Shown here piece by piece: positions 4,877 through 10,647 of a stretch of DNA of 34,010 bases. The notes below the pieces were generated by a model, which saw only the letters and a list, made by a program, of their open reading frames with translations, was not told the DNA's origin and searched no databases. The position numbers and the translations under genes were made by a program. This DNA is from a virus: IMG/VR virus record IMGVR_UViG_3300027770_000160, positions 1-34,010 of that record. The stretch is one strand, 5' to 3'. How positions within the stretch are numbered: position 1 is the stretch's first letter; the number at the start of each line of letters is the position of its first letter.

Positions 4877-5063
4877 ATTTCGTCACATCGTACTTCGGCG
4901 TGGTAGGCGCCTCGACAGTCACGGTGACCGCCTCCGAGCGCATATAAACGATCTGATCCGCCGCGATGAATTGTTGCAACGGTCGCCCCCGGACGTCCGA
5001 GGATGCAGGACGCAACCCGTCAATGATGCGCGCCATGACGCGCGTGATGTCCTCAGCAGCCAT
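4854..5063 (-). CDS. small tail-module protein of unknown function
   Basis: 69 aa from ATG 5063; the longer frame would run 51 bp into the preceding gene. It opens with an amphipathic helix (AAEDITRVMARIIDGLR), followed by Gln/Val-rich strands and a KYDVTKYGRGIY end. Spacing to the tail-hub stop is 2 bp. I do not recognise it; it is probably a structural or assembly factor because all neighbours are. Confidence 0.5.
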   Translation of the reverse strand: MAAEDITRVMARIIDGLRPASSDVRGRPLQQFIAADQIVYMRSEAVTVTVEAPTTPKYDVTKYGRGIYQ

Positions 5064-5065
5064 TG

Positions 5066-6463
5066 CTACAACTCTCCATATATATCGGTTGACAGCGTCA
5101 GGTCGACCTGCCACTGGTCCGGCGTGGCAAACCGCTTCTGGACGTCAGTCACGTACAGGTCGACGCCGAACGCGAATGCGCCCCCGAACCGTCGGTCCGA
5201 CGTGAACCGGAATACCTGACCGTCACGCCAGCCGGACCCGAACACGCGTGCGGTCCCGACCCATTTGTGTGCACGGGTCGCCAGGTAGAGTTGCGCCCGC
5301 GCCTTGATCGCGTCCTGCGACACGTTCACGAGTTCGGACGCGCTGAACACATCCTCGTAGACGCCCGTCGAAACGGACGACCCTTCACGGGTCAGCACCT
5401 CGGTGATTGATGCGCCATCAACGACGCGGTTCACCTTGGGCTCAATGTCGAGGTACGGGTATGTCACCGCAACCGTCGCCCCCGCAGGAGGCACGGTCTC
5501 AAAGCGGACGCCCCAGTTCGGCAGGCACAGAAGTGCCTTGTCTCGCGTGTTGCCGTCACCGGGTTTCCCGTCAATGTTCTCCCGCAATAGTCCGCCGTTG
5601 GTTGTCGTATACAGCGTCGGTGGACCAATCAGTGGCGTCACGGTCACCGTCGTCCCGTTGTACGTTGCTGGCTCATATCCCAGCGGGAAGAACGACGCAT
5701 ACCCGTCGGCTGTCGCCAATGGTTGCGCGAACGATAGTGGTGCGCCGTCATCGTCCGTCGCCACCGACTTCGCGTCCTTGATGAACACGACGTTCGTGAT
5801 CTGGTCGCCGACTTCCTCAAGGACGAGGTCGCCAATGGTCGTCTGCGTTTCCCACGTCAGGCTCGCAACCGGCGCTGCGGATGCAGCCCCGGTCAACGGC
5901 TGGAAGACGACGTTGCGGTCGTAATCGACGTACCACTTGTACCCGACGATTTTCGCGATGCGGTCAATCGCGCTTGATGGCGCCTCGAAGTCGTACACCT
6001 GTTGCGGGATCACATTGCCGTCTGCGATCAGCGACTGCCCCCACGTGATCGCACCCTGATTGCACGTCCCGGTGATGATCGCCTTGACGATGTTTCCCGC
6101 AAGATCGGTCGTCGCCTCGTCGTCACCGGCCGGGATCTTCACGCCCTGAACAAGGTAACGGTCAAACCATCGCGTGTAATCGCTGCAATCGACCGCGTAC
6201 ATGTACGATGATGTCCCACCGGATGATTCCGACACGCGCTGCGTCACGCCTGCGAATTCCTTCGTCCCATCCACGGTCAGGATCACTTCGCGTCCGGCAC
6301 GCGGAATTGCCACCGCCGGGGTCGTCCCCGAGAACGGCACCACGACCTCGAACGACAGCGTCCCGGCGCGATCCCGCAACGATGAACGCACCGCGATGCT
6401 TTCGATGCGCGTGTACGCCTCATACGCGGTACCACCGATTGTCAGGGTCACCGAGAGTGGCAC
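5066..6463 (-). CDS. tail hub / minor tail protein
   Basis: 465 aa from GTG 6463; the longer frame begins inside the tape-measure gene. The N-terminal region (VTLTIGGTAYEAYTRIESIAV then LSFEVVVP and REVILTVDGTKEFAGVTQRV) is typical of tail-hub proteins with a gp27-like fold. These close the tail tube at the tip and anchor fibres. It directly follows the tape measure gene, the expected place for this role in siphoviruses. The C-terminal part (ATRAHKWVGTARVFGSGW...VTDVQKRF) is also typical of these proteins. No peptidase motif was recognised. Confidence 0.75.
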   Translation of the reverse strand: MPLSVTLTIGGTAYEAYTRIESIAVRSSLRDRAGTLSFEVVVPFSGTTPAVAIPRAGREVILTVDGTKEFAGVTQRVSESSGGTSSYMYAVDCSDYTRWFDRYLVQGVKIPAGDDEATTDLAGNIVKAIITGTCNQGAITWGQSLIADGNVIPQQVYDFEAPSSAIDRIAKIVGYKWYVDYDRNVVFQPLTGAASAAPVASLTWETQTTIGDLVLEEVGDQITNVVFIKDAKSVATDDDGAPLSFAQPLATADGYASFFPLGYEPATYNGTTVTVTPLIGPPTLYTTTNGGLLRENIDGKPGDGNTRDKALLCLPNWGVRFETVPPAGATVAVTYPYLDIEPKVNRVVDGASITEVLTREGSSVSTGVYEDVFSASELVNVSQDAIKARAQLYLATRAHKWVGTARVFGSGWRDGQVFRFTSDRRFGGAFAFGVDLYVTDVQKRFATPDQWQVDLTLSTDIYGEL

Positions 6464-6464
6464 G

Positions 6465-9140
6465 TCAGGCGGTCCCGAACGGCAGTCGCCGTTGCAGTCC
6501 GAGTTGACGTCTGAACGCGTCGGCGGCTGCGCGTCCGGCGGTTGCGCCGTCGGCAAACCCGCTTACGTTGATGATCACGGTATCAATGCCTCCGGCACCG
6601 AACGATCCAAGCGGTGACGCGCCAGGCATCGTGTCAAGTGGCACAAGTGCCTCGGGTCCAGCCTCGCCGATCATCGCCATCGTCGGTTGCGTCACGATGG
6701 CACCACGCGCGCCGACGGTCTTGAAGTTGTGCACGACCCATCGCGCGGTTCCCACGAGGTAGGTGTGCGATGGATGATCGACGTGGATGTTGTGGACCGT
6801 CGCGACCCGTCCAGCATCGTGCGATTCCTCGACAATCTCCCGCCCGGTTGCAGTCATGACCACCGACCCTGCCCGTAATTCGTCAGCGCGTCGCCATCCG
6901 TCCGGCGTCAGGAACGGATGTTCCGCCGTGGTGCTGACCACGTCACCGTAAATGCGCAGGTGCCACACCGGATGATCTGCGTGCACGAGCGTGTCCGCGA
7001 CGGTCGACATGACAACGGTCCCGGTTTCCAGGTCGTACACCTCGACGATGTCGCCAGTCACGATCTCCGCGATCCTCATCAGACCGTTTGCTGTCCACAC
7101 CCGCGTGTCCGCCGTGAAGCACGCGAACCCCCGTCGGCCACCAGCAACGGCCTGCACGATGGTCGCTGCAATCCCCGCAACCACGAGCGCGGCTGCCGTC
7201 AACGTCGCGCTTGAGGTTTCCCCGCCGACGCCTTGCGCCACCGGCGGAACACTCAGTCCCTGTGCATTCGGACCCGTCGAGTCGGTGACCGCGTTGTCCG
7301 CCTCAATGGTGCGGTGCACCGTCGTGATCATCCGCGGAATTGATGCGAGCGCGTCGATGATCGACCGGATGCCTGACTCCACGCCCCCAAAGTCGATCCC
7401 GAACGCGATGATGATCAACGTGGGAATCAAGGACAGGCCGTACATCAATTTCGCCACCGCGTCAAGCGCCTGCGTGACTATGCCGGAGACCTCGAATTGC
7501 CAAGGCGCGTCCGGTGTCACGATCTCAATGATGCGCGTCCTGAGATCTGCAAGTTTGTCCAGCGCATCGGTCACGATACCCCTGACGGTAACCGTCCACG
7601 GCTCTGCGGGTTCGCGCAGGCTCGTCGTGCGCTCCTTGATGTCATCCATCGACGCGACTGCGTCGCCAGTGTCGGCCGTCACCTTGATGGCGACATCCCG
7701 ACCCATCAACGTGTCGAGTTTGTTGCGGACCTCGTCATACCCGCTCAGTGCGAGATTGACGAGAATTTCCATGCCTTTGAGACCAGGCACGACGAACTCG
7801 GCAATGTTCCATAGCACCTTGATATTGATGTCCGAGAATGTCGGCAGTTTCAGGACCGCCACGTCCCACAGAACCTTGATGGTTGCAACGGGATTGGTCA
7901 CAAGTTTGGCGATCCACCCGAGCAGTTCGACAATCCAGTCGCGTGCCTCGGCGAAGATCTTCGGCCATTCGCCAATCCGCGCGCCCCATGCCATGACCCA
8001 GTCGATGCCAGCCTTCAGCGCGTTGCCAAGGGCACGCAGGTAATCCCACACCGGCTTCAGCAAACGTGCCACGAATTGCAGCCCCGCGCCCAACACACGC
8101 ATGACGAGCGTAAACGCCTTCAGCGCAATCGTCAGGAACGGTAGGACCGCACGACCCATGTCAAACAGGATCGTCATCACCGGCCGGATGACTTCTAAGA
8201 CCGCCTTGAACGCCTCTCCGGCGGCTGCAAGGAAGTCCTGGAACTCCTGCGACGCGGTGATCGCGCCAATGCCCGCGTCAAGGTCCGCCAAGAGGTCAAT
8301 CATGCCCCGCAGGTACTGCTTGGTCAGCGGTTCGAGCGCCTTGCCGAGCGTCGCCAGACTGCGCGTCAGTTTCGCGTCCATCGTGGACGACAGTCCCTTG
8401 ACCGACTGCGAAGCGCGCTCGGTTGACCCGCCGAACTGCTTTTCGATCTGGTCAATGAGCAGCGGCAGAACCTTCTTCGAGACCAATTGCCCCTTCGATG
8501 CCATTTCGCCAAGCGCGGATGTCGATACGCCCATCGCGTCGGCCAGCATCTTTTGCGCCGGTATGCCCGCTTCCGCAAACTGGTTCAGTTCCTCCTGGCT
8601 GACCTTGCCTTTCAGCAGCATTTGCGAGAACGCAAGTGACGCGCGCCCAAACGTTTCGGCGCTGTCGCCGCTGATGTCGGAAAGTCCCGTCATGACGCGC
8701 GTCAGATCCTCGGCTGCGACGCCTGCGCCCAGTAGCCGCTGCGCGGATTGCATCACCGCCGCGTCGTCAAATGGCGACCAGTCCGCAAACTCCTGCAATT
8801 TCTTGAAGGTCGCGTCGGCCTTTGCGGCGTCGCCGGTCAAACGTAACAGCGTATTCCGGTATCCCTCGACTTCGGACGCTGCAGCCACACTCGCCTTGAC
8901 GACGGCGATGGTGCCTGCCACCAGCGCTGCCGTGGCTGCGACCGCAACGCCGATCCCGATGGCCGCCATGTTGGCACCGCCACCGACCGACGTCAATGCC
9001 CGCGCTGCGCCGAGCGCGCCACCGGACGTACCGGACATCCCGGAGTTCAGTCCGTTCAGTGCCCCGTTGATGCGCTTGAGCGCCGGGGTCGCCTGATCAT
9101 TGACGACGGCATTGATGCGCAGGTTCGCGACGTTCGCCAT
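6465..9140 (-). CDS. tape measure protein with embedded Hint (intein-like) domain
   Basis: 891 aa, the longest gene. AAGAGG lies 5 bases before the ATG. The N-terminal third has the tape-measure signature (KLQEFADWSPFDDAAVMQSA, RLLGAGVAAEDLTRVM, FAEAGIPAQKMLADAMGV), followed by long hydrophobic helices. Residues 674-805 form a Hint domain: it starts CFTADTRVWT, has TAEHPFLT in the middle and ends YLVG...WVVHN. After it comes the classic tape-measure end, GAIVTQPTMAMIGEAGPEAL. The residue after HN is Phe806, not the Cys/Ser/Thr needed for normal splicing. The protein sets tail length and is ejected with the DNA. It follows the tail chaperone gene, as expected. Confidence 0.93.
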   Translation of the reverse strand: MANVANLRINAVVNDQATPALKRINGALNGLNSGMSGTSGGALGAARALTSVGGGANMAAIGIGVAVAATAALVAGTIAVVKASVAAASEVEGYRNTLLRLTGDAAKADATFKKLQEFADWSPFDDAAVMQSAQRLLGAGVAAEDLTRVMTGLSDISGDSAETFGRASLAFSQMLLKGKVSQEELNQFAEAGIPAQKMLADAMGVSTSALGEMASKGQLVSKKVLPLLIDQIEKQFGGSTERASQSVKGLSSTMDAKLTRSLATLGKALEPLTKQYLRGMIDLLADLDAGIGAITASQEFQDFLAAAGEAFKAVLEVIRPVMTILFDMGRAVLPFLTIALKAFTLVMRVLGAGLQFVARLLKPVWDYLRALGNALKAGIDWVMAWGARIGEWPKIFAEARDWIVELLGWIAKLVTNPVATIKVLWDVAVLKLPTFSDINIKVLWNIAEFVVPGLKGMEILVNLALSGYDEVRNKLDTLMGRDVAIKVTADTGDAVASMDDIKERTTSLREPAEPWTVTVRGIVTDALDKLADLRTRIIEIVTPDAPWQFEVSGIVTQALDAVAKLMYGLSLIPTLIIIAFGIDFGGVESGIRSIIDALASIPRMITTVHRTIEADNAVTDSTGPNAQGLSVPPVAQGVGGETSSATLTAAALVVAGIAATIVQAVAGGRRGFACFTADTRVWTANGLMRIAEIVTGDIVEVYDLETGTVVMSTVADTLVHADHPVWHLRIYGDVVSTTAEHPFLTPDGWRRADELRAGSVVMTATGREIVEESHDAGRVATVHNIHVDHPSHTYLVGTARWVVHNFKTVGARGAIVTQPTMAMIGEAGPEALVPLDTMPGASPLGSFGAGGIDTVIINVSGFADGATAGRAAADAFRRQLGLQRRLPFGTA
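6726..7121 (-). other. Hint / intein-like domain inside the tape measure gene
   Basis: Encodes residues 674-805: Cys674 (block A, CFTADTRV), TxxH at 738-741 (block B), His792 (HTYLVG, block F) and the terminal His804-Asn805 (block G). At 132 aa there is no room for a homing endonuclease. The +1 residue is Phe, so complete protein splicing by the standard route is not expected. Cleavage at either end remains chemically possible, as in bacterial intein-like and toxin Hint domains. Confidence 0.88.
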
Positions 9141-9142
9141 GG

Positions 9143-9678
9143 TTACCTCTTCCGGTTCGCCCGTGCCTTGCGGTCACGCTCTTGCCGGACCTGCGCCTCG
9201 TAACTTTCAACCAGGAGCAACCGTGTGCGCCAGAGCGGTTCAAGCCGGACGAGTTGTTCCGGCGTCCACCCGTAGCGCCTCATCAGAAGCACATCGGACG
9301 TCCACGCCGGGCCCTCGGCCCGCCCCTCTACCCAGTGCCAGAGTCGCTCCCGCTCACTTTTGGGACCGTCACCAGTTCCCCGACCAAGGTCAGGATCGCC
9401 TCGACGACGTGCGCCGGTAGCCGGTCCAGAGTTTCCGTCGTCACCGGCACTGGCAATTCCTCGCCGGTATCGACGTCCGTCAGTGACCATCCCGTGATCA
9501 TTGACGCCACCTGCGCCAATGACCGCAGGAACTCATCCTCGATGGACGATGCGCGGATCATCCGTGCCTTCGTCGTCCACCGCATCGCCTCGGGATGTTC
9601 GACGTCGACCCAGTGCCCCGGTTCCCCGGATGCATCGAGTGCCAGCCTCACGGTGCGAAGTGGTTTCGCGTATCCCAT
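9143..9678 (-). CDS. tail assembly chaperone, frameshifted long form (gpG-T type)
   Basis: Product of a -1 shift on CCCAAAA at 9364-9358. Zero-frame codons read to Lys107; reading then backs up one base and continues for 71 residues to 9143 (SERERLWHWVEGRAEG...KARANRKR), giving 178 aa. In lambda and many siphoviruses the G and G-T proteins bind the tape measure and guide tube assembly, and neither enters the virion. The arrangement (tube protein gene before, tape measure after) is exactly as in that system. The extension frame has no good start of its own. The coordinates span both frames; the join is at 9358. Confidence 0.8.
9328..9678 (-). CDS. tail assembly chaperone, short form (gpG type)
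   Basis: 116 aa, starting MGYAKPLRTVRLALDASGEPG. It is an acidic, mixed alpha/beta protein with W31-P-like small-chaperone features and stops at TAG 9328. It lies between the tail tube and tape measure genes, the standard slot. The zero frame contains the slippery heptamer nine codons before its stop, so both the short and long forms should be made. The family was recognised from gene order and the overlapping frames more than from sequence motifs. Confidence 0.8.
   Translation of the reverse strand: MGYAKPLRTVRLALDASGEPGHWVDVEHPEAMRWTTKARMIRASSIEDEFLRSLAQVASMITGWSLTDVDTGEELPVPVTTETLDRLPAHVVEAILTLVGELVTVPKVSGSDSGTG
9358..9364 (-). promoter_or_regulatory. programmed -1 frameshift site CCCAAAA
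   Basis: Zero-frame reading is GTC CCA AAA GTG. The XXXYYYZ heptamer CCCAAAA lets both tRNAs re-pair one base back on CCC and AAA, after which AGT GAG CGG continues the long chaperone. A downstream stimulatory structure was not worked out. Confidence 0.78.
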
Positions 9679-9687
9679 TGCTTCCCC

Positions 9688-10647
9688 TTAATATGCAGTC
9701 TGCGTGTTATTCAGGACAAACTTGCACGGCCCGCCATCGGTCGTGTTGTGAAGGCATCGGCCGGACAACGTGATCTGGTACAGGCCTCCCCCAAGGTCGC
9801 GCGTCGCCGGACCATCGCCGAATGACGCTTGGGTCGCGGTGAACACGAGGGATCGCAGCGTCGTCGTCGCGCCGTACGTCCAAGTCAGGACGATGGCGGA
9901 CTCGTTGAACGCACCGGATGTTCCCATGTATTTAGCCAGATCGTCCACGGACGATGTGCCCGTGTCCAGACTGATCGAGAACGTCGCCTCAAGTGGCTGC
10001 TCGTCAATGCGCGACGGGTCACGGCTTCCGGTCGTGTGAACCAGTTCCTGACCGCGCGCGAGGGTAAGTTCAAACGACGTGACGCGGTTCTGCGCGCTCC
10101 CGCCAATCGACACGGTCGTGTCAATGCCGATCCAGGGCTTGTTGGTTTCCGCGGTCAGCGACGCCGTTGCGGTTCCGCCCGATACACCAGTGACCGAAAC
10201 CATCGAGGTCGAGTGCGTAAGCAGGCCATCGGCTGCGGTGAACGCCAACCGCAGTTCAGAGACCTTCGCCCCAGCATATTCGCGGTACGCGATGGGATTG
10301 GCGTCCTCAACCGTGAATGACGGCACGGCCGATCCGAGCGTGATCGTGTGCGGGTACACACCCGACACGGCGGTGCCCGTCGAAACGGTGCCCATGATGC
10401 CCGCCAGAAGATTTCCCGCAATGTCCGGCAATAACGGACCCTCAAGTGAGAGGCTCGCGCTTCCGCCACCTTGCAGGAGCGCAAAATCCATCGCAGCGAT
10501 GCCACGACGGGCGCTGTCACGAACCGCAGCGTACTCGTTCGCGTACGTCGGGTCGGATGTGACCGGCAGAACCTTGGTCGCTGGGACCGCGGTTCCCCAC
10601 GTCGACTCCTTGCCGAACTGGACTTTCGTTGTGCTAAGGATTGGCAT
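9688..10647 (-). CDS. major tail tube protein
   Basis: 319 aa. GGAGG lies 6 bases before ATG 10647. The opening (LSTTKVQFGKESTWGTAVPATK) matches the common start of siphovirus tail tube subunits (a K/G-rich 'gkEttyGta' turn). A beta-rich body follows with strands such as FSISLDTGTSSVDDLAKYM and a C-terminal LYQITLSGRCL. Such proteins stack as hexamer rings to form the tail tube. Its position directly before the chaperone pair and after the tail terminator supports this. It is a little long for the family, perhaps because of a surface domain. Confidence 0.85.
   Translation of the reverse strand: MPILSTTKVQFGKESTWGTAVPATKVLPVTSDPTYANEYAAVRDSARRGIAAMDFALLQGGGSASLSLEGPLLPDIAGNLLAGIMGTVSTGTAVSGVYPHTITLGSAVPSFTVEDANPIAYREYAGAKVSELRLAFTAADGLLTHSTSMVSVTGVSGGTATASLTAETNKPWIGIDTTVSIGGSAQNRVTSFELTLARGQELVHTTGSRDPSRIDEQPLEATFSISLDTGTSSVDDLAKYMGTSGAFNESAIVLTWTYGATTTLRSLVFTATQASFGDGPATRDLGGGLYQITLSGRCLHNTTDGGPCKFVLNNTQTAY

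Follow-up and report, generated by a model that had tools for sequence, protein, structure and literature searches.

A Hint domain of the type-A BIL kind in a phage tape measure protein, and its possible role in cutting that protein

The tape measure gene and its Hint domain

The stretch of DNA analysed here (the window) is an IMG/VR virus record of 34,010 bases with a G+C content of about 62-65%, from a bacterial virus that is known through environmental DNA alone. Its minus strand carries terminase, portal, prohead protease, capsid, tail tube and tape measure genes. As is typical of siphophage tape measure proteins (TMPs), the protein matches the TMP_3 / tape_meas_nterm profiles and is encoded after the tail tube gene. 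TIGR02675 reaches 57 bits on the 891-aa protein (cut-off 21.35), and a Phage_tube_2 gene (9688-10647, same strand) lies a short way upstream of the TMP gene. The interval between tail tube and TMP genes is the usual site of frameshifted tail assembly chaperones. Two short overlapping ORFs lie there (9143-9490 and 9328-9678, minus strand); neither has a Pfam match, and 9328-9678 has one weak PHROG match of unknown function. The features of the TMP gene are as follows.

6465..9140, minus strand: TMP gene, 891 aa (TMP_3 PF20155 and TIGR02675 over cut-off; tape-measure PHROGs)
8346..8888, minus strand: TMP_3 domain, residues 85-265 (Pfam 92.4 bits, cut-off 41)
7134..7214, minus strand: hydrophobic Ala/Gly-rich, membrane-like stretch, residues 643-669 (Kyte-Doolittle 19-residue mean up to 2.14)
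6726..7121, minus strand: Hint domain of the type-A bacterial intein-like (BIL) / PT-HINT kind, residues 674-805, 132 aa (profile and fold matches)
7119..7121, minus strand: Cys674, Hint residue 1, expected to undergo an N-S acyl shift (invariant in 12 aligned rows)
6918..6929, minus strand: TxxH of block B, residues 738-741 (T and H invariant in 12 aligned rows)
6765..6767, minus strand: His792, the block F His (invariant in 12 aligned rows)
6726..6731, minus strand: His804-Asn805, end of the Hint, expected site of Asn cyclisation (invariant in 12 aligned rows)
6468..6725, minus strand: C-terminal fragment, 86 residues (relatives in 54 viral loci; present without a Hint in L066, L069 and L070)
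6504..6548, minus strand: predicted C-terminal helix, residues 865-879, low confidence (AlphaFold model, pLDDT about 56-57)

The residue after the Hint (+1) is Phe806, the first of the 86 residues that remain beyond Asn805. These comprise a variable linker, a G[GA]IVxxPTxAxIGExGPE block (from residue 813) and a DAFRRQLGLQRRLPFGTA end, and no Pfam domain matched them.

Several profiles recognize the isolated Hint. PT-HINT (PF07591) scores 54.6 bits against a cut-off of 27.7, Hint_2 31.7 against 28.4 and TIGR01445 intein_Nterm 31.2 against 24.5, while the Intein_splicing profile stays at 25.4 bits, under its cut-off of 35.8. When the whole 891-aa protein is scanned, PT-HINT (49.5) and TIGR01445 (24.9) still pass and Hint_2 (25.8) fails. 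This Hint is the only PT-HINT match in the whole 34,010-base record. Pfam/TIGR profile scans found no endonuclease family, for which 132 aa would leave little space.

The closest known structure is 2LWY, a BIL from Clostridium thermocellum, which matches the Hint in sequence with an E-value of 1.6e-15. We built a structure model (AlphaFold) from a 12-row alignment of Hints. Its pLDDT is 74-97 per ten-residue block within the Hint, and low in the stretch before the Hint and in most of the end after it. In a Foldseek search with this model, 2LWY ranks first (TM 0.90 by target, rmsd 1.9, 37% identity), followed by a Tetrahymena BIL2 domain and then by inteins. The window Hint and 2LWY are alike in fold, size (132 aa and a 138-residue chain, respectively), a TxxH-type block, an HTY motif and the terminal HN.

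The presence of a Hint in this TMP is thus real and far above chance. Its coordinates and residues (Cys674, Thr738-xx-His741, His792 and His804-Asn805, 132 aa, minus strand) agree with an earlier note on this DNA. That note had described a complete Hint without endonuclease directly before the TMP end block, and the full catalytic set, the absence of endonuclease families from the profile scans and the position all bear it out, as do the three profiles that exceed their cut-offs on residues 674-805. Every feature of type-A BILs and PT-HINTs that can be judged from sequence and fold is present: the Hint fold, an N-terminal Cys with the block B TxxH, a C-terminal His-Asn (type A, not type B) and no +1 nucleophile. 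The definition of type-A BILs in section 8 of PMC4031507 likewise includes no +1 nucleophile.

Relatives with and without the Hint

Scans of IMG/VR yielded 12 contigs whose TMP holds a complete Hint. An assembly artefact is unlikely, since this architecture recurs in all 12 and their names indicate 11 datasets. Two more contigs (L005 and L008) end inside the Hint. We found 54 loci related to the C-terminal 86 residues, and the Hint is present in 12 of them, always directly before the block and in the same reading frame. The other 42 have no Hint by profile, and some of these end at a contig edge or are distant TMPs. A DNA pattern search for CACAAC before the block returned 28 stretches; six have a Hint, all on contigs that had already been found. 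L067 as a query recovered itself, the L068 contig and one truncated contig.

The Hint ends in VHN in all 12 contigs. Its length is 132 residues in L002, L004 and L014, and an inner VHN lies inside these Hints. The residue that follows is much more variable (F in six contigs, Y in two, R in two, and M and K in one each) and is never C, S or T. The linker after the Asn also differs between relatives, both in length and in sequence.

The earlier note proposed comparing relatives for absence of the Hint, and three (L066, L069 and L070) do lack it while having the same TMP ends. The window TMP and L066 share 67% identity over residues 1-412 and 69% over residues 811-891. Hint-free relatives carry different sequence in the Hint's place. 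Because the part between the conserved ends is different sequence, the change between TMPs with and without the Hint appears to be a replaced middle region and not a clean insertion scar. In L014, which has the Hint, it is the N-terminal half that differs (29% identity over 381 aligned columns); from residue 461 on, identity is 71%.

Selection and history of the domain

The 12-row alignment consists of ten TMP rows, which are 42-96% identical to the window, and two rows from other proteins, L118 (30%) and L028 (26%). None of the 12 departs from Cys1, the T and H of TxxH, the block F His or the final His-Asn. Among eight TMP Hints, a set that leaves L065 and L067 outside, dN/dS is 0.08-0.26 in all 28 pairs. 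For the C-terminal part, it is 0.07-0.43 in 27 pairs, and the remaining pair has no amino-acid change. The Hint is under purifying selection. A decaying pseudo-domain is rejected, given the invariant catalytic residues and low dN/dS.

Synonymous divergence of the Hint is discordant with that of the C-terminal part. Between the window and L004, synonymous differences are 14% in the Hint and 1.4% after it; between the window and L014, they are 26% in the Hint and 55% after it. This discordance (6468-7121, relative to L004 and L014) points to recombination near the junction. All 11 TMP rows fall together (96/96) in a tree of 24 Hints. L067 is flagged there as a long branch, so its position is less sure, and the position of L118, which is about ten residues short, was not used. 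The pattern looks like a single acquisition of the Hint, which may later have moved between TMP bodies.

We rejected a homing intein: no endonuclease was found, a +1 nucleophile is absent and the site is a variable linker. Canonical class 1 inteins have Cys, Ser or Thr at +1, where this TMP has Phe806 and none of the 12 contigs has any of the three. They also occupy highly conserved insertion sites, whereas the flanks and linker of this Hint vary. The class 1 inteins of phage phiCbK, as described in the available part of PMC3556154, share with our Hint the fold, a terminal Asn (in TerL) and a Cys1 (in ribonucleotide reductase). The TerL intein begins with Pro and lies between residues that are absolutely conserved in 50 relatives. 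Such inteins interrupt conserved enzyme sequence; by contrast, the window Hint occurs in a variable linker and is followed in its relatives by F, Y, M, K or R. By sequence, therefore, this Hint is best classed as a type-A BIL kept by selection, and not as a homing intein.

The Hints of polymorphic toxins such as CdiA and RHS belong to the same family and are also placed just before the last domain. In phage records L016 and L017, the Hint likewise comes after a Gly/Ala-rich stretch. With the Hint as a query, a plasmid collection gave ten records, none of which covers 80% of the query. The annotation at the best place is polymorphic toxin-type HINT in seven, RHS in one and the TIGR04388 family in one, and is missing in one. 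The domain may have originated from polymorphic toxin-type proteins. The BIL and PT-HINT examples compared, as far as the sources describe them, belong to toxin-type proteins, whereas the window Hint lies inside a phage TMP and is followed by a structural TMP end. In the available part of a survey of polymorphic toxins, HINT is reported never to occur with the phage-tail-like T6SS or PVC systems (PMC3482391).

The hydrophobic stretch and tail-tip proteins of known phages

We defined a stretch as membrane-like if its 19-residue hydropathy mean is at least 1.6, and left out L002, L003 and L068, which are near copies of tested rows, as well as the Hint-free L070. Such a stretch occurs at most 60 residues upstream of the Hint in eight of ten Hint TMPs tested, and in neither of two Hint-free TMPs. 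The values below the threshold are 1.29 (L023) and 0.77 (L065) among Hint TMPs, and 0.98 and 0.83 in the Hint-free ones. Other hydrophobic stretches are present in all tested TMPs except L023. The association between Hint and membrane-like stretch is a correlation in a small, related set.

The earlier note drew a parallel with lambda, whose TMP is cut during tail assembly. This parallel holds in that TMP cutting is known in both lambda and T5 (PMC10038345), of which T5 is the closer. The available part of that paper places the cut of the T5 TMP (pb2) after R1127, with a hydrophobic stretch before it and, after it, a C-terminal part that is held in the tip, where 35 of its residues are modelled as a trimer in the virion. 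The C-terminal part has a metallopeptidase motif, and the authors suggest that infection expels it. The same text describes the cut in T5 and lambda as proteolytic, names no intein-like domain or phage-encoded cutter, and cites a 1973 title on host involvement for a T5 tail protein. In DT57C, the C-terminal TMP part is reported to remain in the tip after ejection, and a cut is deduced by the authors (PMC10713586, in part). Residues 818-842 of lambda gpH are described as a coiled coil in the tip (PMC10721106, in part).

The order of hydrophobic stretch, cut site or candidate cutter, and C-terminal end is the same in T5 and in the window TMP. Unlike the T5 and lambda proteins, the window TMP holds the candidate cutter inside the substrate itself, and its last 86 residues have no Pfam match where the T5 fragment has its metallopeptidase motif. 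By sequence, eight of the ten Hint TMPs fit the T5/lambda-type layout.

Possible cutting of the tape measure protein by its own Hint

The reading that we favour, with moderate confidence, is that this catalytically complete type-A BIL Hint severs the TMP where the domain begins, where it ends or at both places, while the tail assembles or afterwards. Cys674 would form a thioester that is then hydrolysed, and cyclisation of Asn805 would cut the chain at the Hint's C-terminal end. The N-terminal TMP, of about 673 residues, would then end near the membrane-like stretch and be able to leave the tail later, while the 86-residue C-terminal fragment would sit in the tail tip. The Hint would be excised or stay on one side. 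The work that T5 and lambda are taken to leave to a separate protease would thus be done inside the TMP by its own Hint.

We infer that the Hint is active, which bond is cut and when, and that the fragment sits in the tip; a T5-like cut is suggested because the order of hydrophobic stretch, cutter and C-terminal end fits T5. Autoproteolysis is reported for the BIL domain of CdiA in P. syringae (available part of PMC4725963). The variable flanks and linker seem to favour cleavage, or else a tolerant junction. In addition, the tube lumen would seem to leave little room for a folded Hint on every TMP copy. Other points count against self-cutting. Two of the ten Hint TMPs (L023 and L065) have no membrane-like stretch, type-A BILs can also splice (PMC4031507), and the Hint-free relatives imply that the domain is dispensable for a TMP. 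Moreover, the T5 fragment, with its metallopeptidase motif, is proposed to be expelled, unlike the retained one of DT57C, as far as the available texts go, and the C-terminal helix is a low-confidence prediction.

Splicing is the main rival to self-cutting. By the type-A BIL route, Asn cleavage would produce a new amino end that attacks the thioester, resulting in a continuous TMP of 759 residues and making the Hint a passenger or a timing device. The earlier note considered splicing unlikely because the +1 residue is Phe. The residue is indeed Phe806, but the conclusion was too strong, as type-A BILs, with their His-Asn and no +1 nucleophile, are reported to splice (PMC4031507, section 8). 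Splicing would also be in keeping with the close relatives that lack the Hint and with the conserved catalytic residues at both ends. However, cleavage products dominate in type-A BILs according to the same section, and the Hint's location in a variable linker, with varying flanks and +1 residues, no endonuclease found and C, S or T at +1 in none of the 12 contigs, also argues against it. On balance, we doubt that splicing is what this Hint does.

The self-cutting that we favour presupposes an active domain. If the Hint were instead inactive in these phages, its folded domain could plug the tail tip or act there as a spacer; the other sequence in its place in Hint-free relatives would agree with such a role. 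A plain spacer would need neither invariant catalytic residues nor low dN/dS, which makes this improbable. We think it still less probable that another protein takes over the Cys674 thioester through an amine or thiol, so that the N-terminal TMP is covalently joined to a tip or host component. The BIL2 of the Tetrahymena polyubiquitin locus makes isopeptide bonds (PMC8616854, in part), and BIL2 structures come next after 2LWY in the fold search, but no partner or acceptor is evident here, and a cross-linked TMP would presumably be hard to eject. Finally, PT-HINT is the best Pfam family, and seven of the ten plasmid records with a match carry a polymorphic toxin-type HINT annotation at the best place, so that the Hint might set the last 86 residues free to act as an effector in the infected cell, in line with the release function proposed for polymorphic-toxin HINTs; we regard this as the least probable reading, since these residues, without a Pfam match, are an ordinary TMP end common to Hint-free TMPs, and a released toxin is accordingly unlikely.

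Returning to self-cutting, the kind of domain is known, while a TMP as its host protein and a maturation job for it did not turn up in the literature searched. That literature dealt with TMPs, TMP cutting and BIL/Hint domains, included few subscription papers and was available in part; no Hint-bearing TMP was described in it. If the cutter does sit inside the ruler protein, mutating C674 or N805 would uncouple cutting from assembly, and what the cut is for could be tested directly. A release domain of the polymorphic-toxin type would, if self-cutting is true, be in use as a virion maturation device. More tentatively, a set of phage tail proteins might mature by built-in Hints, the TMP here and in its relatives, and a gpJ-type tip protein with an N-terminal Hint in other phages. 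Self-cleavage would then time the assembly or priming of the tip without a separate protease, by means of a domain from polymorphic toxins. We offer this wider idea as a speculation.

Other Hint-bearing proteins

Searching a phage collection with the whole TMP gave 235 records, and the best 40 of the 235 match between residues 94 and 428, not in the Hint. Three Hint queries gave 4, 7 and 26 records. The annotations under these matches are hypothetical, terminase, portal, helicase, methylase, putative tail, or none. Two phage rows, H51 (the only one annotated as tape measure) and H50 (metallopeptidase), match the C-terminal block and not the Hint. In the genome_contigs collection, three Thermoplasmata loci encode Hint-bearing proteins, which are of a different kind.

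In the virus contigs L026, L030, L031, L033-L036, L039, L042-L044, L048-L052, L054 and L120, a long protein begins with a Hint or has one close to its N-terminus, mostly ending in VHNKGG. Three of these N-terminal-Hint proteins were compared with Pfam. Phage-tail_3 matches all three (L036, L052 and L120), and FNIII-A_GpJ also matches L120, which makes them gpJ-type tail-tip proteins. Nothing in the phage collection matches the L052 Hint region. In L027 (3198-5408) and L028 (3582-5402), the Hint is at the extreme C-terminus and ends in HNKK or HNK before the stop; another HN-ending segment lies just before it.

L118 (2520-5033) encodes a protein of 838 aa in which a PT-HINT precedes a GG-rich C-terminus with a VGD motif. 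It has no PHROG match, and as a query it matched nothing beyond itself. Because PHROGs named no TMP, L118 was left out of the TMP count, and it is possibly a second, independent TMP-like case. L113 and L114 (both 5032-6462) encode Hint-bearing putative tail proteins of equal length and with identical match scores. The hosts listed for these phage records, of 78 kb and 108 kb, are Alcaligenes and Salmonella, respectively.
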